Virus record (IMG/VR): IMGVR_UViG_3300017952_000118
Location: 1 to 22,114 of that record
Length of the DNA stretch: 22,114 nt
Direction: 5' to 3' (one strand)
Source: a virus
In this document: in pieces, positions 7,944-22,114 of the stretch
Layout: every line of letters starts with the position of its first letter
How positions within the stretch are numbered: position 1 is the stretch's first letter
The notes under the pieces: model-generated
Seen by the model: the letters and a program-made list of their open reading frames with translations, nothing else
Database searches by the model: none
Told to the model about the DNA's origin: nothing
Position numbers and translations under genes: made by a program

Positions 7944-7953
7944 TCTTTCTCCG

Positions 7954-7961: not shown

Positions 7962-7980
7962 TAGTTAAACTTTATGGTAT

Positions 7981-8442: not shown

Positions 8443-8447
8443 GTACT

Positions 8448-9035
8448 ATGGCAAGTTTATTTGACACACTACAAGCACAAGCGTTCCGAGCAGGAATACA
8501 GTCTAGGACAACAAGATCTCGTAAATGGTTCCAAAACAAGGTACAAGATCTGAGAGTACCTCCTAGAACAACCCTCTTGAAGGATGATAGATTAGAACAG
8601 ACTGATAGAACAGTTTGGGGTAACATGTACATGTATTTCTATGATCCAAAGATGAAAAAAGAACTACCTTATTATGATAGATTTCCTCTTACCATTATGA
8701 TACAACCAGCACCAGGTGGATTCCACGGATTAAATCTCCATTATTTGAACTATAATGTAAGAGCAAAATTCCTGGATGCTTTAATGGAAACAGCTCCTAA
8801 GAACGTAACAGATAAAACAAGATTAAGAATGAGATATGATTTACTTGCAAAGACTCGTAAGTATAAAGAATTTAAGCCTTGCTTTAAGCATTATTTAAGT
8901 AGTCACGTAAAGTCTAGATTCGCTCGTGTTCCGATGTCGGAATGGGAGATAGCAATATTCTTACCAGTAGAACAGTTTAAGAAATCTGATAAGAGAAAGG
9001 TCTGGTCAGATTCAGTACGTATCGCGAGAGGATAA
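8448..9035 (+). CDS. Conserved late morphogenesis protein, function unassigned
   Basis: A 195-aa basic protein. The segments MYMYFYDPKMKKELPYYDRF (residues about 61-80), FHGLNLHYLNYNVRAKFLDA and a C-terminal SEWEIAIFLPVEQFKKSDK resemble a protein I have seen beside gp4 in many T4-like genomes, usually left as a structural or hypothetical protein. The position between gp4 and the tube gene points to a head- or tail-joining role. It could correspond to one of the T4 head or tail completion proteins, but I cannot tell which. There is no signal peptide, membrane helix or catalytic motif. It starts MASLFDTLQAQ directly behind a late promoter box. Confidence 0.8.
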   Translation: MASLFDTLQAQAFRAGIQSRTTRSRKWFQNKVQDLRVPPRTTLLKDDRLEQTDRTVWGNMYMYFYDPKMKKELPYYDRFPLTIMIQPAPGGFHGLNLHYLNYNVRAKFLDALMETAPKNVTDKTRLRMRYDLLAKTRKYKEFKPCFKHYLSSHVKSRFARVPMSEWEIAIFLPVEQFKKSDKRKVWSDSVRIARG

Positions 9036-9037
9036 AA

Positions 9038-9676
9038 ATGGCAAACACAGTAGAAGATATGAAAGCGATTATATCCAAGAAAGGAGGTCTCGCGAAGACA
9101 AATCGATTCAATGTAATCTTTACACCTCCTTCGGCTTCATTGTTAAATCTAGATCCTCAGGCTATTATCGGATCTTTAATTGGTGGAAGATTTAATGTAA
9201 AGAATCTGATCAATGATCCGAGAGATATATCTTTGCTTTGTGAGAGTGCACAATTACCTGGAAGACAAATCACTACTCACGATTATATGGCACACAAACA
9301 ATCAGTTAAAATTCCTTATACATTTATAAATGAGGATGTTAGTCTTACATTCCTTCTTACAAACGATTATTCTATGAAGGTTTTGTTTGATGATTGGATG
9401 GGTTCTATAATAGATCAAAATTATAGACTATCCTATAAAAAAGAATTCACTACAGATGTTATTATTCAACAATTAGACCATGATGATGTTCCAGTGTACG
9501 GTGTGAAATTAGAAAACGCCTTTCCTACATCATTACAGGCAATTGAATTAAATAATACATCTGATAATAGTGTACAAAAGGTAACAGTGCAATTGAGTTA
9601 CGATAATTGGGTCCCAGAAGGACCGCTCAGTAGTACAGGAAGTGCTATTCGAGCAGTAATTGATGCGATAATATAA
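9038..9676 (+). CDS. 19: Tail tube protein, gp19 family
   Basis: A 212-aa protein of the T4 gp19/tube-initiator type. Family features are TNRFNVIFTPPSASLL near the N-terminus (residues about 21-36), LLCESAQLPGRQITTHDY (about 67-84), VSLTFLLTNDYSMKVLFDDW and the terminal strand VQKVTVQLSYDNWVPE. Gp19 (163 aa) stacks as hexamers to form the inner tube. This one is longer and its neighbours are hub genes, so it could instead be the gp54-like initiator on which gp19 polymerises; a second tube gene elsewhere would decide. The start has GAGAGG eight bases upstream, and the gene follows its neighbour after two bases. Confidence 0.8.
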   Translation: MANTVEDMKAIISKKGGLAKTNRFNVIFTPPSASLLNLDPQAIIGSLIGGRFNVKNLINDPRDISLLCESAQLPGRQITTHDYMAHKQSVKIPYTFINEDVSLTFLLTNDYSMKVLFDDWMGSIIDQNYRLSYKKEFTTDVIIQQLDHDDVPVYGVKLENAFPTSLQAIELNNTSDNSVQKVTVQLSYDNWVPEGPLSSTGSAIRAVIDAII

Positions 9677-9690
9677 TATAGGAGAATATA

Positions 9691-10398
9691 ATGGCATTAC
9701 CAAAGTTGAATGTTCCTCGTTATTCGGTAAATTTACCGTCTACTGGGAAAAAATTAAGTATGAGGCCTTACCTTGTAAAAGAGGAAAAGGTATTAATGAT
9801 AGCATTAGAGTCAAATGACGTTGTTCAGATCTCGAATGCAGTGAAGGATGTTATTCAGTCTTGTTATGATATTGATGATATGGACGAATTAACAATGTTT
9901 GACATTGAGAAACTGTTCTTAGACTTACGCGGTAAGTCTGTTGGTGAGAATATGGATATCAAGATTAAATGTAAGTCTTGTGATCATATGACACCAGTAA
10001 CAGTTAATGTTGACGATGTTAATGTGTCTAACCTAGATCAAGACAGAGTTATTATGTTGGATGAAAAAACCGGTGTTGGTGTGAAGATGAGATATCCCAC
10101 AGTAAAGACACTACAAGGTGTGAATCCAGAAAAATTAAATTCTGTTGAAGGTGTAATGGAAATAATTGGTAGTTGTATGGATACCATCTTTGATGAAGAC
10201 AATGTTTATGATGTTTCAGGAGAATCGAAAGAGTCTATCCTTGATTTTATTGATACCCTTAGTGGTGATCAATTTAGAAAAATCCAGGGATTCTTTAAAG
10301 AATCTCCAGCTATAGTATATGGCAGTAAGTTTAAGTGTGAGTCCTGTAAAGAGGAAAACGAGTTTGAGCTCAAGGGTCTAAACAGTTTTTTTTCATAG
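9691..10398 (+). CDS. 26: Baseplate hub/tail assembly protein gp26, zero-frame product
   Basis: A 235-aa protein of the T4 gp26-type baseplate family (T4 gp26 is 208 aa). Two CxxC pairs, Cys94/Cys97 (KCKSCDH) and Cys216/Cys219 (KCESCKE), probably bind one zinc ion as a split ribbon. The region between them has an acidic helix and MRYPTVKTLQGVNPEKL. The start is supported by AGGAG six to seven bases upstream; the same 14-base module AGGAGAATATAATG precedes the gene at 13308. The last codons are AGT TTT TTT TCA TAG. A slippery run there, with spacer and hairpin, suggests that part of translation shifts to -1 and adds 65 residues. The place just before a tape-measure candidate is where frameshifted tail assembly chaperones lie in many tailed phages. 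Confidence 0.85.
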   Translation: MALPKLNVPRYSVNLPSTGKKLSMRPYLVKEEKVLMIALESNDVVQISNAVKDVIQSCYDIDDMDELTMFDIEKLFLDLRGKSVGENMDIKIKCKSCDHMTPVTVNVDDVNVSNLDQDRVIMLDEKTGVGVKMRYPTVKTLQGVNPEKLNSVEGVMEIIGSCMDTIFDEDNVYDVSGESKESILDFIDTLSGDQFRKIQGFFKESPAIVYGSKFKCESCKEENEFELKGLNSFFS

Positions 10399-10414
10399 GT
10401 CTCTCGCATGAGAG
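10386..10414 (+). promoter_or_regulatory. Probable -1 ribosomal frameshift signal at the gp26 end
   Basis: In the zero frame the sequence reads AGT TTT TTT TCA TAG. Positions 10386-10392 form T-TTT-TTT, a canonical X-XXY-YYZ heptamer. An eight-base spacer (10393-10400) is followed by a hairpin: CTCTC at 10401-10405, loop GCAT, GAGAG at 10410-10414. The -1 frame after the heptamer is open for 65 codons and has no start codon before its 20th codon. All three elements are seen; frameshifting itself is inferred. Confidence 0.72.
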
Positions 10415-10589
10415 CTTAACAAATTATTATCAAACTAACTTTGCCTTAATGCAACACCATAGGTATAGTTTGACAGAGTTAGAAGAGATGATGCCATGGG
10501 AGAGACAGATATACATTGCGCTTCTACAACAGTACATTGAAGAAGAAAACCAAAAGATAAAGTCGAAAAAAGGCTTTAAGGGGTTATAA
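10392..10589 (+). CDS. -1 frame extension of gp26 (gp51-position domain)
   Basis: Reading in -1 from 10392 gives 65 residues, FIGLSHESLTNYYQTNFALM then HHRYSLTELEEMMPWERQIY and a Lys/Glu-rich helix. The MPWERxIYIxLL helix looks like genuine phage protein and resembles the C-terminal parts of frameshifted tail assembly chaperones; in T4 order this is the gp26-gp51 junction. The only in-frame ATG (10449) lies 20 codons in, lacks a ribosome site and would cut off the conserved NYYQTNFALMQ part. The stop TAA (10587-10589) directly touches the ATG of the next gene. The gp26 fusion would be 299 aa. A separate short protein from a non-standard start is the alternative. Confidence 0.72.
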   Translation, partial: FIGLSHESLTNYYQTNFALMQHHRYSLTELEEMMPWERQIYIALLQQYIEEENQKIKSKKGFKGL

Positions 10590-10910
10590 ATGACAGAAGA
10601 AGTTAAAAGTAATTATCATCCGGCTGATACAAACGGAGATGGTAAAGTATCGAAAGAAGAAGAAAGAATGTACTTAGAGTTCAGAAGAAAAGAACTCGAA
10701 GATATGGATGCAATGAGGGATGCACAACGCTCTATGGCATGGTTTGCACTTTTTGGAATGTTATTATATCCATTTGCCGTAGTATTAGCATCTTTATTTG
10801 GATTAGAAAAGGCATCAGATATTCTCGGTGATATGGCAGCAACGTACTTCGTTTCAGTTGCAGCAATCGTTGCAGCGTTCTTTGGTGCTCAGGCTTTTAC
10901 TAAAAAATAG
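10590..10910 (+). CDS. EF-hand membrane protein, unknown function
   Basis: A 106-aa protein with one canonical calcium-binding EF-hand loop at residues 13-24 (DTNGDGKVSKEE, ligands Asp13, Asn15, Asp17, Lys19 carbonyl, Ser21, Glu24). A charged helix follows, then two membrane segments at residues about 50-72 (AWFALFGMLLYPFAVVLA) and 83-103 (ATYFVSVAAIVAAFFGAQAF). The loop lies on the same side as the N-terminus, with both ends probably on one face of the membrane. It starts directly at the stop of the frameshift product and precedes the tape-measure candidate. I recall similar proteins, unnamed, in marine T4-like genomes. Its late, tail-gene context suggests a virion or lysis-time membrane role; that is inference. 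Confidence 0.82.
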   Translation: MTEEVKSNYHPADTNGDGKVSKEEERMYLEFRRKELEDMDAMRDAQRSMAWFALFGMLLYPFAVVLASLFGLEKASDILGDMAATYFVSVAAIVAAFFGAQAFTKK

Positions 10911-10920
10911 GGCATAAGAA

Positions 10921-12903
10921 ATGGCTGAAGATCAAAAACCACAAGATCCTAGAGAAAAGAAAAAGGATAAGTTCCAACAACTGATTGAGCAGATGGCTAA
11001 GAATAATGAGCTATCTAAATCAACAGATGACCATTCTAGAAATTCTCGAAGACATCTATTAGAAACCAAAAAGATTAATACGAGTATAAAGGAAACTTTA
11101 GACTCTATGGTGAAATCTTCAGAGGCTTCCAAGGGTGATGAGAATGAAAAAGAAATGGAAAGGATGCAGGTTTTTGAAGATATTAGAGACTCAATTGCAC
11201 AAGGATTTTCTGCCCCAGCCTCTTCAGGGGGAGAAGGCGGTGGTCCTGGATTATTAAGTGGTGCGGGAGATCTTCTGAAGGGTGCTGGACTTGGCGTTGG
11301 TGCTGGAGCAGCTGGTATAGGTGCACTACTCGCTGGAGGAGGATATCTCCTTGGTGAAATTAATGATATGGATGGGGAGAAGATTAAAAATAACATTATG
11401 TCTATACTCTCTATTGGTGATGAATTAGTTGCTAGGGAAGGAAGTGCACTCAAAGCATTTGGAGAGGCAGGATTATTAGCTCTTACCCTTGGAGGATTAG
11501 GAGTTGGTTTAGCAGCATTTGCAATTGGCGCTGGTGCAGCATCAGTTGTTACTCGATTCGAAACTCCAGGATGGCCAGAACAAATTAAAGAAAATGTGTT
11601 GACCCTACTATCAATTGGTGATTCAGGCGGAGGCAATTTAAATGTTTTGGGTGATTCAGGAACTCTTACACTTGCACTTACAGGATTAGGGATTGGACTT
11701 GCAGCATTTGCAGTTGGATCAGCTGGAGCATCTACTGCTACAGCTATAGCTAAGTTCGAAGGACAAGAGAATTGGGCACAATCTATTAAAGACAACGTAT
11801 TAACATTATTATCAATTGGTGATTCCGGTGGGGGTAATCTAAATGTTTTGGGTGATACAGGAACTCTTGTACTTGCACTTACAGGATTAAGCGTAGGTTT
11901 AGGTATATTTGCCCTTGGTACTGCAGCTGGTGCATCAGCACAAGCTATAGCTAAATTTGAAGGTCAAGAAGATTGGGCTCAGACTATTAAGAATAACGTT
12001 CTCACTCTTCTTTCAATTGGTGATTCTGCAGGAGGTAATTTAGAACTATTAAAAGATAGTGGTGCAGTTACCCTTGCTCTTACAGGGTTAGGAACAGGGT
12101 TAGGAGCATTTGGAATTGGATCTGGAACAGCTGCAGGAGCACAGGCATTCTACGAATTAACAAAACAAGAAGGATCTGGATCGTTTGCTGAACATATTAA
12201 ATCAGAAGTAGAAACGTTATTGAGTATCGGTGATATAGAAAATATAGGAAATATTGATACTGCAATGGAAGCTCTTGGTAAGTTAGGAATTGGACTTGGT
12301 GCATTTGGAACAGGATCCTGGATTGCAGCATTAGGACAAGCAGGAGCAGCACTACTAGAATTTTTCTCAGGGAAAGAAGGTCCAGTAGAAACAGCTTTAA
12401 CTATAGCAGATAACGCATCTAGAATTGATGAAGGTGCTGCAGCATTTGAAAGGTTTGCCGATTCCTTGAAGAAGTTTGAGAACATTACAATTGATTTTGA
12501 TGCATATCAATTCTCTCAAAACCTAGGAAGAGGAGTTAGTAATTTAGAATCTATTCTATTAGGTGGTAACGTAAGTATACCTGGTCTTGGTAACGATATA
12601 GAGCTAAAAGGATTAACTAATTTAGGAACTGAAACAGAGACTGCGGCAATGCACATTGAGAGATTAAGAAATGTTCTTTCGATGAGCGATGGATCACAAA
12701 CTATGAATTCAACATCAAGTTCTACGGGTTCGAACCTTATGTCTATCTCAGCAGAAAACGTAGAGCTCAAAGCAGATTCTGTAACTATACCTCCAATAAC
12801 AAACATATCAAACGTCAGAGGTGGAGACACAAGAGGTGGAGATCAATACACCCTTGCTACACCAACACCAAGTAGAACAGTCGAAGCATTAGAAACAAGG
12901 TAA
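10921..12903 (+). CDS. Probable tape measure protein (gp29-like), tandem-repeat rich
   Basis: A 660-aa protein. The N-terminal 90 residues are highly charged and coiled-coil-like. Residues about 100-145 are Gly/Ala-rich and hydrophobic. Five tandem units with the core LLSIGD follow (LSIGD, then a GGNL/GTLTLAL block, a hydrophobic GLGAFxxG stretch and an xWAQxIK linker). The first four cores are exactly 67 residues apart (11398, 11599, 11800, 12001); the fifth follows after 70. The C-terminus is polar with a Ser/Thr-rich tail. The length is near that of T4 gp29 (590 aa), the tail ruler, and the gene directly follows the gp26 frameshift cassette as a tape measure gene usually does. I see no sequence motif proving it is gp29. 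Another virion protein is possible. Confidence 0.7.
   Translation: MAEDQKPQDPREKKKDKFQQLIEQMAKNNELSKSTDDHSRNSRRHLLETKKINTSIKETLDSMVKSSEASKGDENEKEMERMQVFEDIRDSIAQGFSAPASSGGEGGGPGLLSGAGDLLKGAGLGVGAGAAGIGALLAGGGYLLGEINDMDGEKIKNNIMSILSIGDELVAREGSALKAFGEAGLLALTLGGLGVGLAAFAIGAGAASVVTRFETPGWPEQIKENVLTLLSIGDSGGGNLNVLGDSGTLTLALTGLGIGLAAFAVGSAGASTATAIAKFEGQENWAQSIKDNVLTLLSIGDSGGGNLNVLGDTGTLVLALTGLSVGLGIFALGTAAGASAQAIAKFEGQEDWAQTIKNNVLTLLSIGDSAGGNLELLKDSGAVTLALTGLGTGLGAFGIGSGTAAGAQAFYELTKQEGSGSFAEHIKSEVETLLSIGDIENIGNIDTAMEALGKLGIGLGAFGTGSWIAALGQAGAALLEFFSGKEGPVETALTIADNASRIDEGAAAFERFADSLKKFENITIDFDAYQFSQNLGRGVSNLESILLGGNVSIPGLGNDIELKGLTNLGTETETAAMHIERLRNVLSMSDGSQTMNSTSSSTGSNLMSISAENVELKADSVTIPPITNISNVRGGDTRGGDQYTLATPTPSRTVEALETR
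11398..12400 (+). repeat. In-frame tandem repeat, 201-bp period, inside the tape-measure candidate
   Basis: Successive LSIGD cores start at 11398, 11599, 11800 and 12001 (three exact 201-bp steps) and a fifth at 12211 (210 bp). Units two and three are most alike at DNA level, for example CTTGCACTTACAGGATTA in both. This points to recent unit duplication. Confidence 0.85.
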
Positions 12904-12930
12904 AAAAAAGGGAGCTTAGTGCTCCCTTTC
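12902..12930. terminator. Bidirectional rho-independent terminator
   Basis: GGGAGC at 12910-12915, loop TTAGT, GCTCCC at 12921-12926. On the plus strand it follows the tape-measure stop directly and is followed by TTTCCTT. On the minus strand it is followed by eight T (12909-12902), a strong signal closing the 13308 gene after its frameshift extension. The convergent genes share it. Confidence 0.85.
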
Positions 12931-12931
12931 C

Positions 12932-13048
12932 TTAATATTCGCATTCCTCAGGATTCTCAGAACAATATTCTTGTATTTGTTTAATTAATACCTTAATATC
13001 GATTTCATTATCTTGCCTTTTCCCTCTGCGTGAGAAAAGGATTAATCC
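12932..13048 (-). CDS. -1 frame extension of the small exported protein
   Basis: Shifting to -1 after CCA AAA AAG gives 38 residues, GLILFSRRGKRQDNEIDIKV then LIKQIQEYCSENPEECEY, ending in TAA at 12934-12932, two bases before the terminator. This frame has no ATG, GTG or TTG anywhere between its upstream stop and its end, so it cannot be started independently in the usual way. The acidic, Cys-containing ending looks like protein. The combined product would be 125 aa. The coding sense of the extension is an inference from the shift signal and composition; it is too short to be sure by itself. Confidence 0.6.
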   Translation of the reverse strand, partial: GLILFSRRGKRQDNEIDIKVLIKQIQEYCSENPEECEY

Positions 13049-13054
13049 TTTTTT
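13016..13054 (-). promoter_or_regulatory. Probable -1 ribosomal frameshift signal (A AAA AAG plus hairpin)
   Basis: On the minus strand the zero frame is CCA AAA AAG GAT TAA. Positions 13054-13048 are A-AAA-AAG, the most efficient bacterial -1 slippery heptamer. A seven-base spacer GATTAAT (13047-13041) leads to a hairpin: CCTTTTCTC (13040-13032), loop ACGCAGA, GGGAAAAGG (13024-13016), nine pairs including one G-U. All elements have textbook spacing. Use in vivo is inferred. Confidence 0.72.
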
Positions 13055-13308
13055 GGTTCTTGCAATTCGTCAGTTTGTTTGTCAACTTCATCAGCAACTG
13101 TATCAACTACACCTACGGTAGTATCAACTGCAACTGTTGCAACAGAAACAACATCATCAGCTACTGCACCAACGATTGTTCTGGAACCTTGAACAGCCCC
13201 ATCAACAACACCTGTAGTGAATTGCTTACCGCCTTCAATGACTGCTCCTACTGATGCGCAACTAGCAGCAAAAACCAATCCGACGAATATAGAAAATAAT
13301 GCTTTCAT
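13042..13308 (-). CDS. Small exported or lipoprotein-like protein, Val/Thr-rich
   Basis: An 88-aa zero-frame product beginning MKALFSIFVGLVFAASCASV, a clear signal peptide. Cys17 after AAS could be a lipidation site, but the lipobox is weak. The mature part is a run of Val-Val/Asp-Thr units (GVVDGAVQGSRTIVGAVADD, TTVGVVDTVADEVDK) likely to form an amphipathic or membrane-associated stretch, ending in EPKKD. Similar small proteins occur in marine T4-like phages without known function. It has AGGAG six bases before the ATG, a late promoter at 13374-13367 and is a single-gene late unit. A frameshift signal at its end would replace the final Asp by 38 further residues. Confidence 0.78.
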   Translation of the reverse strand: MKALFSIFVGLVFAASCASVGAVIEGGKQFTTGVVDGAVQGSRTIVGAVADDVVSVATVAVDTTVGVVDTVADEVDKQTDELQEPKKD

Positions 13309-13361
13309 TATATTCTCCTATGCATAGGTTAATTCTGATAAAGGTTAACTTTATCCCCAAT

Positions 13362-13379
13362 TATCTTATTTATAAGATA
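13362..13379 (-). promoter_or_regulatory. Late promoter TATAAATA within a perfect palindrome
   Basis: The minus strand has TATAAATA at 13374-13367, the T4 late consensus. It is embedded in a perfect inverted repeat, TATCTTAT-TT-ATAAGATA (13362-13379). The predicted start near 13361 gives a leader of about 50 bases to the ATG at 13308. Whether the symmetry matters is unknown. Confidence 0.72.
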
Positions 13380-13402
13380 CCTTTGTCCACATGTTGAACA
13401 CT

Positions 13403-13446
13403 AAAAAAAGGGGTGCCGAGCACCCCTAAAAACCGTGAGGGTTTTT
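13403..13446 (-). terminator. 32: Tandem terminator hairpins after gp32
   Basis: Right after the gp32 stop the minus strand has AAAAACC, loop CTCAC, GGTTTTT (13446-13428), then a second, stronger hairpin GGGGTGC, loop TCG, GCACCCC (13426-13410) followed by seven T (13409-13403). This isolates gp32 from the late promoter just beyond. Confidence 0.87.
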
Positions 13447-14344
13447 AATCTTTCGCTAACCTAGCAAAATAGCTTAGAGTGTCGTCCTCATCACCGGAAT
13501 CAGAATCTAATGATTCATTAGATTCAAAGGGTGAATCATCAACAACGTTTACAGTTACTGATTTCATTTCAGGCATTTCTGCTGAAACTCCTGCATCGAC
13601 TCCAAGTACTCGATTCAGCTTTGCTTTGAGTTCATCATATGTTTTATAGTTTTTAGGATCTACAAACTCCTGAAGAGAATATAGCTTATTGTATACCTCT
13701 TCGAGTCTTGATTCATCCCCTTCAAACAATGATGCTGGAGAGCTAAACTCTGACTTATCATAGTTTACCCAACCATCAACTTTTCTGATTTTGATCTTAA
13801 AGTCAGCGCCTTCCCAGAAATCGTATGGATTCACTGGTTGTTCGTCGGCAAATTGAGGTTGCATCTGATCCATTAGTTTATCAAAGATTTTCTTACCGAA
13901 CTTGTATAAGAATACCTTACCCTCGTTCTGAGGATTTTCAGGATCAGAAATTACCAACACATTTGAAACATAATGTAGTCTTCTCTTTCTTTCACGAGCA
14001 ATAGCCTTATCCTCATCACGGCCAGAGTTCCAAAGTACAGTGTTTGACTCTGAGACTGGGTCCTGCTGCCCAATAGAAGTTAAGGAGTTTTCGATATACC
14101 ATAGACCGGTAGGACCTTTAAACCCATGATCCCAATATCTTACCCAAGGAAGATCTTCACCTTCTTTTGCGGGTAAGAATCGGATTACGGCATAACCGTT
14201 TCCTGCCTTATCTCTGGTTGGTTTCCAAAAGCGATCATCTTCATAAGATGTTGTTTCGGTTTTGGGTGAGGATACTGCTTCTGCAGCTTTTACGAGTTTG
14301 TCGATTGACGAGCCTCGGGTGCTCTTTAAGTTTGCAAATGACAT
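13445..14344 (-). CDS. 32: Single-stranded DNA-binding protein gp32
   Basis: A 299-aa protein (T4 gp32 is 301 aa) that coats ssDNA in replication, recombination and repair. The N-terminus MSFANLKSTRGS is the usual basic LAST-type motif for cooperative binding. The OB core includes DRFWKPTRDKAGNGYAVIRF, then VRYWDHGFKGPTGLWYIENS and LHYVSNVLVISDPENPQNEG. The acidic tail ends ESLDSDSGDEDDTLSYFARL, the part that contacts partner proteins. The start at 14344 is chosen because GGAG lies six to seven bases before it; the longer frame opens only with a GTG (14377). The zinc-site cysteines of T4 gp32 are absent: the His of YWDHGF remains, but WYIENS follows where the Cys cluster would be. An early promoter lies at 14424-14396. 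Confidence 0.95.
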   Translation of the reverse strand: MSFANLKSTRGSSIDKLVKAAEAVSSPKTETTSYEDDRFWKPTRDKAGNGYAVIRFLPAKEGEDLPWVRYWDHGFKGPTGLWYIENSLTSIGQQDPVSESNTVLWNSGRDEDKAIARERKRRLHYVSNVLVISDPENPQNEGKVFLYKFGKKIFDKLMDQMQPQFADEQPVNPYDFWEGADFKIKIRKVDGWVNYDKSEFSSPASLFEGDESRLEEVYNKLYSLQEFVDPKNYKTYDELKAKLNRVLGVDAGVSAEMPEMKSVTVNVVDDSPFESNESLDSDSGDEDDTLSYFARLAKD

Positions 14345-14395
14345 ATTTTTCTCCGTTGTATTTACTGAATTATCCACTTACGCATAATATTATAC

Positions 14396-14424
14396 ATTAT
14401 ATCATAATATAACATTTATGTAAA
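14396..14424 (-). promoter_or_regulatory. Early sigma70-type promoter for gp32
   Basis: TTTACA (14424-14419), 17 bp, TATAAT (14401-14396), preceded by AAGAGG. The -35 box encodes the last two residues (Phe-Thr) of gp59, so gp32 can be made independently of the upstream operon. Confidence 0.85.
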
Positions 14425-15003
14425 CCTCTTTTTAAGGATTTTTAAACATGAATCCTTATTGAAATCTACAAAGGGTGTATACTTCTCAATCTTCCTCTTG
14501 ATGTCTGGCCATATAATGGTTTCAGATATCTTTTTGGATTCCCTTGGTACAAACCCTAATATGGAATTTAGAATAACAACAGTCTCTAGACTGATCTCTT
14601 CTTGCATCCATATTTTTACTATCATCGGATGTTGTCCATCGTCTGATATAAAGTATTTATCGAAATCATATCCTAAGTCAACTAACTTATTAATATCTAC
14701 TTCGAATGTTCTGTGTATTGACTCTCTGATTTTTTTATGGTCTCTGTAATTTTGTTCGCCCCCTTCATTAAGCATCTCGCCAATATAAGAAGAGCCACGA
14801 ACAAAGTTAGAAACGAAATAATGAACAAGGTCTTTACCATAGTTCTTTGCTACCTTTGCGAAAAAATATTTATCCTTACGTTTGAAAAAAGATTGTGGTG
14901 TGATTTGGGTTTTGAAATTATATTTTATTGCATCATATGTATCTGTTTCAAAGTGAAGTTTGATTGAGTTATAAACTTTATAGGCTTCATATGGATCAGT
15001 CAT
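14416..15003 (-). CDS. 59: Helicase loader gp59
   Basis: A 195-aa basic all-helical protein (T4 gp59 is 217 aa) that loads the replicative helicase gp41 on gp32-covered forks. Recognisable are MTDPYEAYKVYNSIKLHFET at the start, a KRKDKYFFAKVAKNY segment, and YFVSNFVRGSSYIGEMLNE (residues about 62-80), followed by WMQEEISLETVVILNSILGF in the second domain. It lies between gp33 and gp32, the usual neighbourhood in marine T4-like phages. The ATG overlaps the gp33 stop (ATGA). Its final codons contain the -35 box of the gp32 promoter. Confidence 0.92.
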   Translation of the reverse strand: MTDPYEAYKVYNSIKLHFETDTYDAIKYNFKTQITPQSFFKRKDKYFFAKVAKNYGKDLVHYFVSNFVRGSSYIGEMLNEGGEQNYRDHKKIRESIHRTFEVDINKLVDLGYDFDKYFISDDGQHPMIVKIWMQEEISLETVVILNSILGFVPRESKKISETIIWPDIKRKIEKYTPFVDFNKDSCLKILKKRFT

Positions 15004-15233
15004 ACAGGTAGTGTATTTCCTTTCTTTTCTCTTAATAGATTATTTCTTTTTGCTTCTGCTTCGACTTTTTGTTTCAATGAATCAGTCATAAGCTTTGGTA
15101 CATTACGAAAATCTAATTTTCGGTACTCAACAAAATAAGTCATAGCATCTATATAGGACATATCTTCCTTTGCAACTAAAGTTTCTACGGCTTCAGAGAA
15201 CCTTTTCTTTGTCATTATCTTATCTTCAAGCAT
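15000..15233 (-). CDS. 33: Late transcription coactivator gp33
   Basis: A 77-aa protein similar to gp33 of T4-like phages (T4 gp33 is 112 aa), which binds RNA polymerase and links it to the sliding clamp for late transcription. The helical core is KKRFSEAVETLVAKEDMSYI with DAMTYFVEYRKLD, and the C-terminus ends in a short GNTLPV tail of the type that binds the clamp. The ATG at 15233 overlaps the previous gene by eight bases; Met7 (15215) is a possible alternative start. It shares ATGA with gp59. The presence of this factor fits the TATAAATA promoters in the window. Confidence 0.85.
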   Translation of the reverse strand: MLEDKIMTKKRFSEAVETLVAKEDMSYIDAMTYFVEYRKLDFRNVPKLMTDSLKQKVEAEAKRNNLLREKKGNTLPV

Positions 15234-16389
15234 CCATCACTCTTAGTAGTATACAGTCAGAATTGATTCTTCCTGTGGGTTGATATATTTTAGTTGTAAG
15301 ATTTCCCCAGATGTTCTCAATCTGTCTTGCAGTCTTGTTTAGAATCTGAGGTAGAATCTCATCAGGCTTACGTAAAGTTGTAGTTCTACTCATCTTAGGA
15401 TCAAAGAATTTAAGGGTTGATCCACTTACTTCGAATCCACTAGTTCTATCACAGATATACTCAGTGAGTTTCTTTTGCTTTACGTTATACACAAACAACC
15501 TGTAATTACCTGGTATAAGAACAGGATTAATTGATGTTAGTTTAGATTCGAGATCTTCTTTGTTATATTTAAGATTTATGACTTGCTTATCGGATGCTTT
15601 CGGCTTCTTCGCTCTTGGTATTCTTGTAGCCTTAAATGAATCTCTTAATCTTTCAAGATCAGAGAAGGCTTCATCTAGGGTTTTAATCATTGATTTCAGT
15701 TGGGGTTTAGATACATGCGAATAAGCTTCTACAGCTTGATCACAGGTTTTGTTATACGCGTCACTAAGAACTTCATAATCAAGCTGAATCATATCTTTTA
15801 CCATATTAATGGCGTTAGACTTAAGACCGGCAAGTTTGAATTTGTTGTACATATCGAACTTAATTTTATAATTACCATCAATCCATTGGTCAACAACTTC
15901 TTCTTGGAAGTCCCCATAGACTGTATCAATAACTTTTCTTCGTGTTCTTTCTACAGGAGAGATCTGAGGTGGTTTCTTTTTTTGCTCCTCTTTCTTTTCC
16001 TCTACGACTGTCCTCGCTTTTTCTAATATTTCAGAATATGCTTCACGAAAAAATTCTAGATCTCTTTCATTATTTTCCCAACCCCTAAAATGGAGTATTG
16101 CACTTTTTACCCTTAGGAATTGCCAATCTTTTAATTTCTTTAGAGCTAAGATATCTTTCTTTTTATATCCTAGTACCTCTTCAGCAAATCGAATACAGTA
16201 TGGAACATAGTCCTTTGGCTTATAATGATAGTTGTAGTAATTCATGGACTTTTGCCATACATTACCTCTTTTAACTTCGTCGGTTGGGGTTTCTCCAGGA
16301 TTAAAAATAGGCTCTGCACCAACATACTTGTCGTCCAGAGTTATCCTATTCTTTCTTAATGTAGTTCTTAATTTGTTTTCTTTTGCCAT
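15226..16389 (-). CDS. Conserved 387-aa protein upstream of gp33, function unknown
   Basis: A basic protein without a motif that I can assign. Residues about 45-70 are Tyr-rich (QKSMNYYNYHYKPKDYVPYC), about 125-145 form a Glu/Lys coiled-coil segment, and the C-terminal half includes a beta-rich region (PGNYRLFVYNVKQKKLTEYI). I recall proteins of this size beside gp33 in marine T4-like genomes, unnamed. It heads the gp33-gp59 operon, so a replication or transcription role is plausible. The early promoter at 16424-16396 places the transcription start at about the ATG itself, there is no ribosome site, and the next in-frame Met is residue 49, so the message may be leaderless. Confidence 0.82.
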   Translation of the reverse strand: MAKENKLRTTLRKNRITLDDKYVGAEPIFNPGETPTDEVKRGNVWQKSMNYYNYHYKPKDYVPYCIRFAEEVLGYKKKDILALKKLKDWQFLRVKSAILHFRGWENNERDLEFFREAYSEILEKARTVVEEKKEEQKKKPPQISPVERTRRKVIDTVYGDFQEEVVDQWIDGNYKIKFDMYNKFKLAGLKSNAINMVKDMIQLDYEVLSDAYNKTCDQAVEAYSHVSKPQLKSMIKTLDEAFSDLERLRDSFKATRIPRAKKPKASDKQVINLKYNKEDLESKLTSINPVLIPGNYRLFVYNVKQKKLTEYICDRTSGFEVSGSTLKFFDPKMSRTTTLRKPDEILPQILNKTARQIENIWGNLTTKIYQPTGRINSDCILLRVMDA

Positions 16390-16395
16390 ACGTAT

Positions 16396-16424
16396 ATTAT
16401 ACCGTAGATAAAATTAAAAGTAAA
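16396..16424 (-). promoter_or_regulatory. Early sigma70-type promoter for the gp33-gp59 operon
   Basis: TTTACT (16424-16419), 17 bp, TATAAT (16401-16396), preceded by AGGGGG. The start codon follows six bases after the -10 box, so the predicted RNA start coincides with the ATG at 16389. Confidence 0.85.
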
Positions 16425-16478
16425 CCCCCTAAGTGGACTTTTTGATAAGGAGTAAGGGATGCCACAAAGGGGGTTTAC
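16420..16478 (-). terminator. Long inverted repeat, terminator-like, overlapping a promoter
   Basis: GTAAACCCCCT (16420-16430) plus GTGG (16433-16436) pair with CCAC (16462-16465) plus AGGGGGTTTAC (16468-16478), with an AA/AA internal loop and a 25-base loop. On the minus strand it follows the 16720 gene and is trailed by TTTTAATTTT, so it could end that transcript. One arm is also the -35 region of the promoter at 16396. Confidence 0.6.
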
Positions 16479-16483
16479 GTAAA

Positions 16484-16720
16484 CTATTCTAATCCGTCTT
16501 CCCTTTTATATTTCTTAATTCCTTCAACATAGTTCTCTGCAGCGCTTTCTGCATATTCCTCACTATGTCCTTCATACCATTCAAGTCCTAAGCAACAATC
16601 TGAATCATACATACGAATACCATAAACATGATTCTCTCCTGTGCTTCGAACAACTTCTGCTTTTAGCTTTCCATTATAAAATTCGGAAAGAGTAATATAA
16701 TTTTTTGAAAGGTTCATCAT
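16484..16720 (-). CDS. Small conserved early protein, unknown
   Basis: A 78-aa protein starting MMNLSKNYITLSEFYNGKLK. The C-terminal half has RMYDSDCCLGLEWYEGHSEE then YAESAAENYVEGIKKY, a pattern I recall from unnamed small proteins of marine T4-like phages. It has two adjacent Cys, is acidic overall and has no membrane segment. The ATG overlaps the upstream stop as ATGATGA, indicating coupled translation. It is the last gene of its cassette and is followed by the long inverted repeat. Confidence 0.75.
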   Translation of the reverse strand: MMNLSKNYITLSEFYNGKLKAEVVRSTGENHVYGIRMYDSDCCLGLEWYEGHSEEYAESAAENYVEGIKKYKREDGLE

Positions 16721-16872
16721 TTTTTTCCCTTAATCATATTGTTTAAAAATCCACCTTCTTCCCAAGCAAGTGGGATATGTTTTTTTTGTCTTTTTTCCTC
16801 ACTCATATGAGCACCTACATAGACAAATAAAAGTCCTATTGTGATAACTACTAATCCTATAATAAAATCCAT
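16717..16872 (-). CDS. Small single-pass membrane protein
   Basis: A 51-aa protein, MDFIIGLVVITIGLLFVYVG at the N-terminus (one membrane helix, residues about 3-22), then a charged tail with SEEKRQKKHIPLAWEEGG. The ATG shares one base with the upstream stop (TAATG) and the stop overlaps the next start (ATGATGA), so it sits exactly in the chain of coupled genes. Function unknown. The charged cytoplasmic tail suggests an inner-membrane protein acting early in infection. Confidence 0.72.
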   Translation of the reverse strand: MDFIIGLVVITIGLLFVYVGAHMSEEKRQKKHIPLAWEEGGFLNNMIKGKK

Positions 16873-17228
16873 TATCGTGCCATCCTTGATATTTCTGTTG
16901 CTTGTTCTTGATTAATTACTGGAACTGCATTCGACTTATGCATCGTAGCAATTCCTTTGATGAGAGTTCCTGTATATTTTATAGGTTCTTTACGATCACC
17001 TTTACCAGATCCCATCTTACAGAATGTCCCATTCTTTACAGCTTCTTCCATGAGAGACTTATACTGCCTGGATTGTTCTTGCCTTAGAAGTTCCAAAGTG
17101 GATGGTTTATATTCCATTGTTTTAAATTCCACTGGCTTTTTCTTAACAGGATTTGCTGCATGTTTCTTACGACGCTTACCAGTTGGTCCGTAGCGTAGAG
17201 AACCCATATAGAAGCTAGTCATACCCAT
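16872..17228 (-). CDS. Small conserved basic protein, unknown
   Basis: A 118-aa, strongly basic protein. The N-terminus MGMTSFYMGSLRYGPTGKRR with KKHAANPVKKKP is Lys/Arg-rich. The C-terminal block KGIATMHKSNAVPVINQEQA is highly reminiscent of a conserved ending in marine T4-like phage proteins of unknown function. A nucleic-acid or ribosome contact is possible from the charge but not shown. It overlaps both neighbours by one base (TAATG). Confidence 0.77.
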   Translation of the reverse strand: MGMTSFYMGSLRYGPTGKRRKKHAANPVKKKPVEFKTMEYKPSTLELLRQEQSRQYKSLMEEAVKNGTFCKMGSGKGDRKEPIKYTGTLIKGIATMHKSNAVPVINQEQATEISRMAR

Positions 17229-17548
17229 TAGAAGGATAACTCCATTTGTTTCTTTCTTTCATGAGTCATTTGGATATCGGCTTGATTACTTTGGTAATCG
17301 TACATGATTTCTTCGATTGACTTCGGTTCCTTCATTGTAACAACTTCACCACTTGATGAGATTGTTCGAATAATAGAACCATCGTTATATTCAATGTCAG
17401 TTACATTACCATCCTCTGGCCTAGTTTCATACCACATTGAAGAGATTATATGAGTGTTAAAAAGATGTAAGGATTTTACACCCTTAGCCCACTCTTCTGC
17501 TTTTAGACGAAGTCTTTGTCTGTTTACTTCATATTCATACTGACCCAT
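17228..17548 (-). CDS. Small early protein, unknown
   Basis: A 106-aa protein, MGQYEYEVNRQRLRLKAEEW at the start, a central beta-rich part with DGSIIRTISSSGEVVTM and a polar helical ending. I do not recognise a family. It has no membrane helix or signal. The start lies 14 bases inside the end of the upstream 45-aa gene, and the stop shares one base with the next ATG, so it is part of the same coupled transcript. Confidence 0.7.
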   Translation of the reverse strand: MGQYEYEVNRQRLRLKAEEWAKGVKSLHLFNTHIISSMWYETRPEDGNVTDIEYNDGSIIRTISSSGEVVTMKEPKSIEEIMYDYQSNQADIQMTHERKKQMELSF

Positions 17549-17672
17549 TCTTACCCCCAGCCTTTGCTATTAGTTCTCTTAGTTTCTGATCCCAAAGTTT
17601 TTTGAACTCTGGATTCTTAGCATTCTTCTTCGCATTTCGAAGCGCGATAGCCCTACGTGTAACACTATCCAT
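17535..17672 (-). CDS. Very small basic protein, 45 aa
   Basis: An open frame of 45 codons starting MDSVTRRAIALRNAKKNAKN and ending GGKNGSV. Its ATG shares one base with the upstream stop (TAATG), the same junction found throughout the cassette. The composition is basic and helical, like a short nucleic-acid-binding peptide. It overlaps the next gene by 14 bases. It is called mainly on position and codon sense; function unknown. Confidence 0.62.
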   Translation of the reverse strand: MDSVTRRAIALRNAKKNAKNPEFKKLWDQKLRELIAKAGGKNGSV

Positions 17673-17944
17673 TAGTTCCACTCATCCTTCATGGATTGAT
17701 AAGTTTCGTAGTAAGAAGTACCTTGGATATAGTTCTGAGTCTCTTTCTCAGTGTAGTACATGTTTTCTTCCTTAAAGCATTCCAAAGAAGATGGAGCTTG
17801 ATGAGCTGCTTTTTTTACAGTCTTCGTAAGCTTGTTATAACTACGAACAGGTTTGCTATAGATTTTCTTAACTGTTTTCTGAAAAGCCATTTCTTCTTTT
17901 TCTTTCTTCAGAAAGTCCATTATTTCGTCAAATGAATCTGCCAT
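17672..17944 (-). CDS. Small early protein, unknown
   Basis: A 90-aa charged protein, MADSFDEIMDFLKKEKEEMA then FQKTVKKIYSKPVRSYNKLT, and a C-terminal part rich in Tyr and Glu (MYYTEKETQNYIQGTSYYET). It is helical and lacks membrane segments. It shares one base with each neighbour (TAATG junctions). No family is recognised. The repeated Tyr/Thr pattern is typical of many short early phage proteins. Confidence 0.72.
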   Translation of the reverse strand: MADSFDEIMDFLKKEKEEMAFQKTVKKIYSKPVRSYNKLTKTVKKAAHQAPSSLECFKEENMYYTEKETQNYIQGTSYYETYQSMKDEWN

Positions 17945-18273
17945 TACGCTGCCTCCTTCATATTCATATTACTAGGATTAACTGGAATAAGTCTTTCACA
18001 GAGGAACTGCTGATAGTCCTCTGAATATTCCGAAATTTGGTCTTGCCATTCAGACAAGGTTTGAACACCAATTGGAAACTCTTTTTGAGCAATGGTGTTG
18101 ATGCTGAAAGCAGCCATCACGAATGCCATAGCATCTTGAGGTCGATCCAAACCAGTAACAAGATAGTCGCTACCGTTTTTGAATTTCCAATAAGAATTCC
18201 CAGATGAGAATTTACCATCCTCACAGTGAGCCCCATAATTTTCGAGATATTGTGTACTAACTACGAATTCCAT
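17944..18273 (-). CDS. Small conserved early protein (TQYLENYGAH type)
   Basis: A 109-aa protein. The start MEFVVSTQYLENYGAHCEDG followed by YWKFKNGSDYLV is a pattern I know from unnamed proteins common in T4-like marine phages. The middle is helical (AMAFVMAAFSINTIAQKEFP). No catalytic residues are obvious. The start is well supported: AAGGAG lies six bases before the ATG, and the early promoter at 18332-18304 precedes it, so this is the first gene of a six-gene coupled cassette running to 16484. Confidence 0.8.
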   Translation of the reverse strand: MEFVVSTQYLENYGAHCEDGKFSSGNSYWKFKNGSDYLVTGLDRPQDAMAFVMAAFSINTIAQKEFPIGVQTLSEWQDQISEYSEDYQQFLCERLIPVNPSNMNMKEAA

Positions 18274-18303
18274 AACTTACTCCTTTTTTTAAATTACCTG
18301 TAT

Positions 18304-18332
18304 ATTATACCAAATTTTTGGCCCCTTGTAAA
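18304..18332 (-). promoter_or_regulatory. Early sigma70-type promoter for the small-gene cassette
   Basis: TTTACA (18332-18327), 17 bp, TATAAT (18309-18304), preceded by TAGGGGGG and followed by AGGGGCC. The leader is about 24 bases and carries AAGGAG. Confidence 0.88.
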
Positions 18333-18352
18333 CCCCCCTAGGTGAAAAAAAC

Positions 18353-18562
18353 TCAACTTTTTTCATCCAAGCACTCAACGGTAACCCTGTATTGGGTACC
18401 ATATTTGTCCTCAACCGAGATGGTTTTCTTTGTAGATTTAAAGTAACCCTCAGGGGTTAAATCCATTTTAGGGTAGGACACATTAGATAACATTGGATCG
18501 TGTGTCTTCAAAGATTTCGAAATTGAATCAGCAATATAATCACAATAAACTAAACCTTTCAT
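18353..18562 (-). CDS. Small early protein, unknown
   Basis: A 69-aa protein beginning MKGLVYCDYIADSISKSLKT and ending with a beta-rich TISVEDKYGTQYRVTVECLD. The start at 18562 is preferred over a longer frame opening at 18619, because its ATG overlaps the stop of the small membrane gene upstream (ATGA) and GGAG lies nearby. No family recognised. It is the last gene before the promoter at 18332, so it ends the 19237 transcript. Confidence 0.72.
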   Translation of the reverse strand: MKGLVYCDYIADSISKSLKTHDPMLSNVSYPKMDLTPEGYFKSTKKTISVEDKYGTQYRVTVECLDEKS

Positions 18563-18678
18563 GACCAAACTCCTATATAAGCCATTACAGTAATGATTGT
18601 GGCACAGATGAAGATCCAAACAATGACCTTAGCAATAGCTGTAACCAAATCTCCTAAAAATCCAAAAAAGTGTTTCAT
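18559..18678 (-). CDS. Very small membrane protein, 39 aa
   Basis: An open frame of 39 codons, MKHFFGFLGDLVTAIAKVIV then WIFICATIITVMAYIGVWS, almost entirely one membrane helix after a short amphipathic start. It fits precisely between neighbours: TAATG at its start and ATGA at its end. An amphipathic or holin-like toxicity cannot be judged from sequence. It is called on the exact junctions and membrane composition. Confidence 0.68.
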   Translation of the reverse strand: MKHFFGFLGDLVTAIAKVIVWIFICATIITVMAYIGVWS

Positions 18679-18863
18679 TATAAAGATACCTCCACGAATT
18701 TTCTTCCACGTTGTTCGAAAGTCTTTGGCTTAGAGAACACAAAGGGAGTGTCAGTACCTTCCTTGATGTACCCCACCATTTTCTGATTCTCTATCATATA
18801 GGTATGACACGGAACACGATAATCTGTTTTCCAATCAGAGGTTATTTCTTTTAGAAACTTCAT
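18678..18863 (-). CDS. Small conserved early protein, unknown
   Basis: A 61-aa protein, MKFLKEITSDWKTDYRVPCH then TYMIENQKMVGYIKEGT and KTFEQRGRKFVEVSL. The order of a Trp-Lys-x-Asp-Tyr-x-Val-Pro segment, a TY strand and GYIKEGT matches an unnamed small protein that I recall from marine T4-like phages. It looks like a compact beta fold. It shares one base with each neighbour (TAATG). Confidence 0.75.
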   Translation of the reverse strand: MKFLKEITSDWKTDYRVPCHTYMIENQKMVGYIKEGTDTPFVFSKPKTFEQRGRKFVEVSL

Positions 18864-19237
18864 TATGCTGCCACCTCAATTTCGTCGAATCCAAATCCAG
18901 CGACGATATAGTGCTTATTCGTTTCATTATCAACAATGATGTCACCAACTGAAGTTGAATGACCACGTTCGTAGATATGGACCTTTTCCAAATCATTCCA
19001 CATATTGGTTAGATGGAAAACGTGATCTAAGCTTTCGGCTTGGACCAAGAACTTATCGTTATAGAGAGCAATATCGTCCTTATTGAATATATCACCTTCA
19101 CGGTCTTGAAAGTGCATATAGTCCATCTTTGCCCTCCACTTATCTGAACGAGCGACTGCGCCATCCCAACCAAGTTTGTTAGGCATGTCATCTTCTTCTT
19201 TGTTAAAAGTGATTTGTTTAACGGTGTATGTTTTCAT
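18863..19237 (-). CDS. Early protein with a YodL-like C-terminal segment
   Basis: A 124-aa acidic protein beginning MKTYTVKQITFNKEEDDMPN. The second half reads HVFHLTNMWNDLEKVHIYER then GHSTSVGDIIVDNETNKHY and IVAGFGFDEIEV. The run HSxSVGDII...Y.V.GFGF resembles the YodL-type module found in phage and plasmid proteins of unknown role; this is a distant similarity by eye. The start at 19237 is chosen because AAGGA precedes it; a frame six codons longer opens only with TTG and would cover the ribosome site. It is the first gene after the early promoter at 19293-19265. Confidence 0.75.
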   Translation of the reverse strand: MKTYTVKQITFNKEEDDMPNKLGWDGAVARSDKWRAKMDYMHFQDREGDIFNKDDIALYNDKFLVQAESLDHVFHLTNMWNDLEKVHIYERGHSTSVGDIIVDNETNKHYIVAGFGFDEIEVAA

Positions 19238-19264
19238 AATGTAGTTCCTTATCAAGATGTGTCT

Positions 19265-19293
19265 ATTATACCAAATCTCGGGGGCCTTGTAAA
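19265..19293 (-). promoter_or_regulatory. Early sigma70-type promoter for the 19237 operon
   Basis: TTTACA (19293-19288), 17 bp, TATAAT (19270-19265), preceded by AAAAGGGGG and followed by AGGCCCCC. It serves the YodL-like gene and its three downstream partners. Confidence 0.88.
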
Positions 19294-19321
19294 CCCCCTT
19301 TTCGTGACTTTTTCGTGACGT

Positions 19322-19396
19322 TTAGTTGGTGAATGGAAGGTGGAATGGGAAGCATTTTGAGAAGACCTGAAGCTCTTTTCGATAGGCCTCTTTTTC
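19322..19396 (-). other. In-frame coding continuation after the TAG of the metallopeptidase
   Basis: Directly after the TAG (19399-19397) the same frame stays open for 24 codons, reading EKEAYRKELQVFSKCFPFHL to a TAA at 19324-19322. With Trp in place of the stop, the junction would read NQPWEKEAYRKE, a pattern typical of this peptidase family. One base (TGG to TAG) explains the stop. It may be a nonsense mutation, readthrough, or an error in the sequence. Confidence 0.62.
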
Positions 19397-19741
19397 CTAT
19401 GGTTGGTTCTTGTATTTGTATCCCTCTGCAGATCGACCTTTCCAAGCCCATTGACCTTGAGAGGCGTCCAATTCTTTTCGGAGGAATTGCTTCGCATGGA
19501 TCATTTCATGTGCTAGGGTCTGCATCATTTCCATGAAGGTGAATTCACCCTTAGAAATATCGATCTCGATGATTCCATAATCGTAAGAGCATAGGCCTGA
19601 AGCTTCGGTAAGTTTTTTGCTGAAGGTAATAACAATAGGTTTTTTGAACCTAGAAATTTTTAGGTGTTTGGCTATGTTCTGTACGTATTCGTGTACGGTA
19701 GCTTTGTTTTTAATCTGACCTTTGATAAGTACTGGTACCAT
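19397..19741 (-). CDS. SprT-like zinc metallopeptidase, ended early by TAG
   Basis: A 114-aa protein with the zincin motif HEMIH at residues 78-82 (preceded by MEMMQTLA), followed by AKQFLRKELD and an aromatic WAWKGRSAEGYKYKNQP ending. Similar small peptidases occur in many T4-like phages; their substrate is unknown. The start at 19741 (MVPVLIKG) is chosen because AAAGGA lies eight bases upstream and the promoter at 19801-19773 would start RNA about at the longer ATG (19768). The protein stops at TAG, but coding sense resumes immediately after it. In relatives the part following NQP probably carries the third zinc ligand (a PWExEA-type helix), so the 114-aa product could be inactive. Confidence 0.75.
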   Translation of the reverse strand: MVPVLIKGQIKNKATVHEYVQNIAKHLKISRFKKPIVITFSKKLTEASGLCSYDYGIIEIDISKGEFTFMEMMQTLAHEMIHAKQFLRKELDASQGQWAWKGRSAEGYKYKNQP

Positions 19742-19772
19742 TTTTTGGGTCCTTTTTATTAAATACATGAGT

Positions 19773-19801
19773 ATTCTATCATATTTAGGGGCCCTTGTAA
19801 A
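19773..19801 (-). promoter_or_regulatory. Early sigma70-type promoter for the metallopeptidase
   Basis: TTTACA (19801-19796), 17 bp, TAGAAT (19778-19773), preceded by TTAGGGGG and followed by AGGGCCCC. The RNA start falls near 19766-19768, which excludes the ATG at 19768 as a normally led start and supports 19741. Confidence 0.85.
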
Positions 19802-19834
19802 CCCCCTAAATCAACTTTTTTTCAACTTTTTTCT

Positions 19835-19921
19835 CTAATAAAATCAATAACTTATGTGTATATTGCTCTAAGTATATGATTTATATAGAGATTTATTTTT
19901 CCTAATAAAATCAATAACTTA
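19835..19921. repeat. Two 20-bp direct repeats in an AT-rich gap
   Basis: CTAATAAAATCAATAACTTA occurs at 19835-19854 and again at 19902-19921, 67 bp apart. They lie in the 131-base non-coding gap (19802-19932) between the secreted-protein gene and the early promoter. The gap otherwise holds A/T runs and a TATAAATC sequence (minus, 19885-19878) close to the late consensus. No gene is seen in it. Confidence 0.7.
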
Positions 19922-19932
19922 AGAAATTACCC

Positions 19933-20451
19933 CTATCTTTTACTGCAATTCCTCTTGGCTCTATCATATACCTTCAGATTGTTATGGACTACAATTGAGG
20001 TTATTATTGTTGTAGGCATAAGAACCTCATCTGTAATTAAGCCTCTTCGGTCTATCTCAGGTAATAGATTACCGAATATGAAGGTTTTTAAAAGTATCAT
20101 TTCGCGAACTTCAGGTACCCTTGGTAATAAAGGATTCATTTCATATACACAATCGTAAGCGAGGGCTCTTTTGGTAGACCAGATATCTCCAGCTTGAGCC
20201 AGAAAAAATAATGTCCAGGTAGCTAAGCTGGCAGGATCCTCCTCTGTTATTTTTATATCATTTAATATATTAGATTCAATAATGTATATTTCAGGGGATC
20301 TGTGTCTTTTTATATATTCTTCGTTATATGGTGCATAATACCCAGCATCAAATAATACCTTTCTTTGAGGAGATATATCTGCTTGTACTGAAGTACTTAT
20401 AAGAAGTATTCCAAGTATTAATTTATTTAGTTGTAGCAATAAAGACTCCAT
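19933..20451 (-). CDS. Secreted or membrane small protein next to the cyclase
   Basis: A 172-aa protein with a signal peptide, MESLLLQLNKLILGILLIST and SVQA before a likely cleavage at DIS. The second half resembles an uncharacterised phage and bacterial domain (DUF5658-like by eye): TWTLFFLAQAGDIWSTKRAL followed by DCVYEMNPLLPRVP, where a Asp-x-x-x-Thr helix and Glu-x-Asn-Pro-Leu are the marks, then hydrophobic helices. The C-terminus is basic. The start lies 29 bases inside the cyclase coding end, so the two are co-translated. The role is unknown; it could be a periplasmic or membrane partner of the cyclase, which is inference from the overlap only. Confidence 0.78.
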   Translation of the reverse strand: MESLLLQLNKLILGILLISTSVQADISPQRKVLFDAGYYAPYNEEYIKRHRSPEIYIIESNILNDIKITEEDPASLATWTLFFLAQAGDIWSTKRALAYDCVYEMNPLLPRVPEVREMILLKTFIFGNLLPEIDRRGLITDEVLMPTTIITSIVVHNNLKVYDRAKRNCSKR

Positions 20452-22114
20452 CCCAATCCTTCGGTAAATCTTGCGTTTTCATATATTCGCAACGCTCTAT
20501 CCACATATCATAATAGTTATCCATTTTACCATCAAACTCACCTTTTAAATCATTACAGAATTTTATAGCCATATCAAATTGTTGTGATCTATATAACTCA
20601 TGCATCTTATTATGTGTATCTTGTCTTGAGGGCCAATCTGTATTATGCCATGCCCAAAACCATGTATCTAAAACTGTATAAATCCCTATACCAACACTCT
20701 TACCTTTTACTGCAAGATCATCAATCTTAAGGAAAAAGAAATCCTCCTCACATTGTTTTACAGTAGATTCACCAACTAATAATAAGCAACCATACTCTTT
20801 GCATTTAGATTCTATTCTTGCTGCTGTGCTAACTGCATCTCCTAAAACATCATATGAATGCCTGCTTGTACTTCCCATTTCTCCAAGGTAACCCAAGCCA
20901 CTATTAATTCCAGCACCCATACCAATCGGAGGTCTACCTTCGGCTGTGATTTTTTCATTAAACCTCTCCACTGCCTTTAACATATTGAGTCCAGTTTGGA
21001 CTGCGCTCTTTGGATGATTTGGGTCATCATTTGGAGCATTATGGACATGCATACTAGCATCACCAATATACTTTATAATCATACCATCTGCATTCAATAC
21101 TGGTTGTGTAATAGCATCCATATATTCGTTCATGAGTTTAGTTAATCCCTTTACATCATCACCAAAGGATTCTCCCAATGGGGTAAATCCTCTTAGGTCA
21201 GAGAAGCATATAGAAATTTCCCTTTTCATACCGTCTTTAATTAATGATGGATTTTCTTGTAACATACGAACGACTGTTGGAGAGCAATATCCTGCAAACT
21301 GTTTTTGTATTTCTTGTCTAAGTTTAAATTGAACCCAGAAGTTATTAAATGAAGCAGATGCGAATGATATTATAAATATTAGTATGACTATAGTTGGGGA
21401 AAGAAGTATTCCAAAGTTAGTCCAAGAATACCAGAATCCTCCTAAAACACCAGAAGATAAAGATATAAAGGTAATTAATGATGCCCAAAGTGGAAGATAA
21501 TATACACCCAATACAATCAAAAGAGATCCAATTAGAGTTAGACCTATTTCCAATAGAGATCCATATATCGGACGAGAAATTGATTGATCCGATAATATTG
21601 TCTGCAGAGACATTGCCTGAAGATGATGAGCTGGAAGAAGACCAACCGGTGTTGCTATCTGAGAAGCTACCCCACTTGCAGTTAGACCTACAATTATAGT
21701 TTTACCTTGTAGGTTAGGAAGAGTATCAACCCCATACTCATATCTTTCAAATTCATAATTGGTATTTAACCATATAGATCCATTTGCATCTGTAGGTATT
21801 TGAAATGGTCTCAATATAATTTCTTCGATTCCTAAATCATTTACCTTAATCGTATATGATGGTTTCTCGTTTAATATTCTGATTGTCTCTAAAGAAAATG
21901 ATGGATATAATTCATTATTAATCTGAGATAGAAGAGGAATCCTTCTTGTAACACCATCAACTTCTGGCATACCATTTATTAATCCCACACCCCAAGCCTG
22001 TTCTTCGATTATAGGAATATTTGTTACGAGTCCATTATATCGTATTGCCCAATCAAGAGGATCACCAGTACCAAACACAGCGGTACCTACATAAGGAGCC
22101 TTTTCACTTCTTCC
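20423..22114 (-). CDS. CHASE2-type membrane class III nucleotide cyclase (partial at right edge)
   Basis: The frame is open to the window edge; 563 residues are seen and the start lies outside. Numbering here begins at the codon at 22078. Residues 1-165 are the C-terminal part of a CHASE2 extracellular sensor (AWGVGLINGMPEVDGVTRR and LQGKTIIVGLTASGVASQ). Three membrane helices follow (about 173-245). The cyclase domain spans about 285-470: metal Asp294 (ICFSDLRGFT) and Asp340 (KYIGDASM), base-selecting Lys336 and Asp410 (SYDVLGDAV), catalytic Arg421 (AARIE). Lys and Asp predict ATP as substrate. The usual Asn four residues before the Arg is Ser417. A helical tail ending DWDGVFIATTK is typical of CHASE2 cyclases. 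It probably makes cAMP in response to a periplasmic signal. Confidence 0.9.
   Translation of the reverse strand, partial: GRSEKAPYVGTAVFGTGDPLDWAIRYNGLVTNIPIIEEQAWGVGLINGMPEVDGVTRRIPLLSQINNELYPSFSLETIRILNEKPSYTIKVNDLGIEEIILRPFQIPTDANGSIWLNTNYEFERYEYGVDTLPNLQGKTIIVGLTASGVASQIATPVGLLPAHHLQAMSLQTILSDQSISRPIYGSLLEIGLTLIGSLLIVLGVYYLPLWASLITFISLSSGVLGGFWYSWTNFGILLSPTIVILIFIISFASASFNNFWVQFKLRQEIQKQFAGYCSPTVVRMLQENPSLIKDGMKREISICFSDLRGFTPLGESFGDDVKGLTKLMNEYMDAITQPVLNADGMIIKYIGDASMHVHNAPNDDPNHPKSAVQTGLNMLKAVERFNEKITAEGRPPIGMGAGINSGLGYLGEMGSTSRHSYDVLGDAVSTAARIESKCKEYGCLLLVGESTVKQCEEDFFFLKIDDLAVKGKSVGIGIYTVLDTWFWAWHNTDWPSRQDTHNKMHELYRSQQFDMAIKFCNDLKGEFDGKMDNYYDMWIERCEYMKTQDLPKDWDGVFIATTK

Follow-up and report, generated by a model that had tools for sequence, protein, structure and literature searches.

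The window, a 22,114-nucleotide stretch of viral DNA, carries T4-like structural genes together with a gene for a gp32-like ssDNA-binding protein. The phage is a marine myovirus of the T4-like type with Methylophilales phage Melnitz among its relatives, and its relationship to the Melnitz group follows from a cyclase that is 57% identical to its counterpart in those phages. This protein, encoded on the minus strand at 20423-22114, associates a CHASE2 domain with an adenylate/guanylate cyclase domain and is predicted to be a phage-encoded membrane cyclase. It is 35% identical to a protein of pelagiphage HTVC008M, and its relatives are carried by 24 viral contigs. A SprT gene near the cyclase was not detected by tblastn (E <=1) in 23 cyclase-bearing relatives.

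The feature of interest is a peptidase open reading frame on the minus strand, which spans 123 codons from its first ATG (19768-19397) and whose product ends in ...YKYKNQP. Residues are numbered from this ATG throughout. The terminating TAG is followed in the same frame by 24 further open codons (EKEAYRKELQVFSKCFPFHLPFTN), which lead to a TAA. The first-pass annotation had described this ending, the open frame behind it and base 19398 as the altered position, and all three were found as it placed them. The remnant beyond the stop contains neither a frameshift nor a second difference from the intact alleles described below.

Table 1. Coordinates of the features found at the peptidase locus of the window.
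Feature	Position	Strand	Basis
Truncated SprT-like / gluzincin-like metallopeptidase ORF	19397..19741	-	Pfam SprT-like PF10263 match, HEMIHAKQ motif; probable start 19741, longest ORF from 19768
In-frame TAG (19399-19397), TGG (Trp124) in two other contigs of the phage population	19397..19399	-	Differing base 19398
Remnant of the C-terminus beyond the stop, 24 codons minus overlap (EKEAYRKELQVFSKCFPFHLPFTN + TAA 19327-19325)	19325..19396	-	Sister alleles; last helix (123-139) of the modelled intact protein
HEMIH zinc-binding motif, residues 87-91 from the first ATG	19496..19510	-	Sequence and alignment
Sigma70-like promoter site TTTACA-17-TAGAAT with TG, immediately upstream of the peptidase gene	19773..19801	-	Consensus match only
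Second promoter-like site, TTTACA-17-TATAAT, just past the stop codon of the intact allele and ahead of the following gene	19265..19293	-	Consensus match only

Translation probably does not begin at the first ATG, because this codon sits at the expected transcription start of the promoter-like sequence located immediately upstream. The ATG at 19741 (M10) is probably the better candidate, since it is preceded closely by AAGGA and aligns with the beginnings of the related proteins. The nine residues preceding M10 are poorly ordered in the structure model of the intact protein. With this start, the truncated product would measure about 114 aa, against about 138 aa for the intact protein. The pattern TTKACA-N14-TGNTAKAAT has four exact matches, all on the minus strand, at the two promoter-like sites of Table 1 and at 14396-14424 and 18304-18332; three of the four have TTTACAAGG in common. 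When up to two mismatches are allowed, 8 sites are found in the window against 1.5 expected. These sites are probably early promoters of the small-gene region.

The product of the truncated ORF matches the Pfam SprT-like family PF10263 (E=2.4e-7, 31 bits for a cut-off of 25.6; 30.5 bits with the intact allele) as well as the phage families phrog_10499 and phrog_16532. With the model of the intact protein as query, Foldseek retrieved the SprT domain of Spartan (6mdx/6mdw, E 3.4e-4). VIA-align returned the YbeY-like AQ_1354 (1oz9) as its top match with a Z of 10.7, along with M1 aminopeptidases (Z 7-9) and Wss1, selecase and IrrE (Z 7-8), values under 8 being weak according to the tool's own note. 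Several SprT-like phage proteins are present among the viral fold matches. The resemblance to the SprT-like family and Spartan lies in the Pfam cut-off being passed and in a common HExxH helix. However, the match to Pfam is confined to residues 28-99 of the phage protein, whose third conserved acidic residue is found in a PWExEA segment on the last helix, where the protein ends. The gluzincins, such as the minigluzincin selecase (4qhj/MJ1213) and the M1 aminopeptidases, offer a second likeness: in the phage protein the HExxH motif is followed 34 residues on by an invariant Glu in the next helix, and the fold matches include selecase, Wss1, IrrE and M1 enzymes. The sequence similarity to selecase is weak (E 0.006) and stops short of this Glu, and the top structural row is the YbeY-like AQ_1354. 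The layout HExxH...PWEKEA is shared by the intact allele with phrog_10499, phrog_16532 and the Melnitz protein QZI94801.1, in which a PWEKEAYRLQDKYA segment stands intact close to the C-terminus. Unlike the gene of the window, these relatives have no stop at the Trp codon.

Two other IMG/VR contigs, L019 and L020, come from different metagenomes and belong to the same phage population as the window. L019 aligns over 13,466 bp with positions 6676-20141 (17 mismatches, no gap, 99.87% identity) and L020 over 7,783 bp with positions 13237-21019 (6 mismatches, no gap, 99.92% identity). Both have TGG in place of the TAG and encode the longer protein, which bears out the earlier proposal that a single transition had converted TGG into TAG. 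A degenerate DNA pattern accepting either codon matched only these two contigs in the viral collection, both with TGG, and the same two were recovered with a pattern drawn from the HExxH region; the TAG allele was seen in one contig only, that of the window. The 24-codon extension is not a chance open frame, since in L019 and L020 the same stretch makes up the C-terminal end of the intact protein, and it aligns with other relatives. The presence of an intact gene in contigs so nearly identical points to an ordinary broken allele or to a base-call error rather than to a new mode of coding.

The differences between the three contigs allow the window to be compared with its sisters. In their common overlap (13237-20141, 6,905 bp), the private differences number three in the window, four in L019 and three in L020, so that the window appears no more error-prone than the other two. 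Those of the window are synonymous at 16700, missense at 16741 and nonsense at 19398. The 20 differences among the three contigs amount to 10 synonymous, 8 missense, one nonsense and one noncoding, and no other nonsense difference was seen between the window and L019 or L020. For these genes, 3-5% of random point changes would create a stop codon. Between 0.6 and 1.0 nonsense change is therefore expected among 20 differences without selection, and the single one found needs no special cause.

The segment removed by the stop is conserved. In 73 aligned sequences, a set biased towards the PWExE motif because part of it was retrieved with a PWExE pattern, residues H87, E88, H91, Q94, E125 and A128 are invariant, and P123 and W124 are each conserved in 72. 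The PWExEA-type segment that the first-pass annotation had attributed to the relatives is thus real, with PW in all but one sequence. Each of the 73 continues for 17-46 residues from the W124 column onward and none ends at NQP. Among the loci retrieved only with patterns located before the stop, PWE is present in all those aligning over the region; only the divergent L016 is devoid of the segment. In the model of the intact sister protein (pLDDT 89.7), residues 87-91 of the HEMIH motif belong to helix 78-96, and W124 and E125 open the last helix, made of residues 123-139. Gluzincins use as third zinc ligand a Glu located 20-60 residues past the second His (PMC3356374). The position immediately after the stop is E125, 34 residues past H91 and inside this range in the intact allele; it is missing from the product of the TAG allele. 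Its invariance, its spacing and the predicted fold suggest that E125 is probably the third zinc ligand, in agreement with the earlier suspicion that the lost part held one. Since the TAG removes the last helix along with this likely ligand, the short product is predicted to be probably inactive.

Three origins had been proposed for the stop codon, a recent nonsense mutation, a programmed readthrough and an amber suppression, and only the nonsense mutation is supported as an explanation. Stop reassignment and suppressor tRNAs are known from other phages, and the intact and conserved frame past the TAG would suit a phage or host reading this codon as an amino acid to make the full protein. Such a reading is nevertheless very improbable. 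The 30 ORFs examined end in TAA (19), TAG (7) or TGA (4), and the six other TAG-ended ORFs would be lengthened by only 1-9 codons through readthrough. One of them, the baseplate hub gene (9691-10398), encodes 235 aa that align with the family right to the end. The peptidase TAG is a single case, no in-frame TAG having been seen in further conserved genes, and the sister phages use TGG. Recoding is consequently refuted, TAG terminating 7 of the 30 ORFs with no other broken gene. The search for a suppressor tRNA advocated in the first-pass annotation was also negative: no tRNA gene was found in the window, L019 or L020. The complete genome of Melnitz encodes two Arg tRNAs, a Trp tRNA, a Leu tRNA and a tmRNA, and a CUA anticodon was seen neither there nor in the 15 cyclase-bearing relatives scanned. 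Suppression by a tRNA encoded outside the analysed sequence is unlikely. A programmed readthrough yielding a short and a long form is, if anything, even less credible. Two reading lengths are possible in principle and the extension is conserved, but the sense codon of the sister alleles means that readthrough does not characterize this gene, and the short form would be deprived of the invariant E125. No recoding signal was apparent either, as the 81 nt past the TAG fold no better than shuffled sequences (z -0.70; 47 of 200 shuffles being equally or more stable). No Rfam match was obtained within the window. It is equally hard to believe that the TAG allele is maintained by a selected role of the helix-less short protein, perhaps that of a zinc-free binder or inhibitor, or by an amber suppressor of the hosts.

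A more serious competitor, although still an unlikely one, is an assembly or base-call error, in which the sampled phages would all carry TGG and the consensus base of the window would be wrong. The TAG is indeed a singleton that breaks a conserved gene, and the population's two other contigs read TGG. On the other hand, base 19398 lies outside any homopolymer, and the private differences of the window do not exceed those of the other contigs. The change is probably real, recent and private, marking a dispensable or deleterious allele rather than a sequencing error. The explanation in which we place good confidence is accordingly a G-to-A transition that created a private nonsense allele in this accessory peptidase gene. 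The phage would normally encode a small SprT-like zinc peptidase of the gluzincin type, probably from an early gene. In the copy of the window, one such transition on the coding strand would have turned the TGG of Trp124 into an amber stop. Translation would then halt at the TAG, depriving the product of its last helix and of the invariant Glu125, the probable third zinc ligand. The resulting product would most likely be an inactive peptidase, its zinc binding and activity presumably abolished.

Taken by itself, one nonsense allele in an accessory early gene of an uncultivated marine phage is a minor finding. It teaches nonetheless that candidates for readthrough or recoding in metagenomic phages should be compared with sister contigs first. 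The alignment also singles out an invariant Glu, that of PWExEA, which probably serves as third zinc ligand in a widespread family of phage SprT-like peptidases.

Two other genes of the window deserve mention. On the plus strand, positions 10921-12903 encode a 660-aa protein without clear family match, in which about four glycine/alanine-rich internal repeats (NVLTLLSIGDS...GLGIGLAAF...) can be recognized. On the minus strand, the 176-aa protein encoded at 4402-4932 matches only the N-terminal part of the gp5-like baseplate hub/tail lysozyme, and this split gp5 resembles the separate OB-domain gene of Melnitz.
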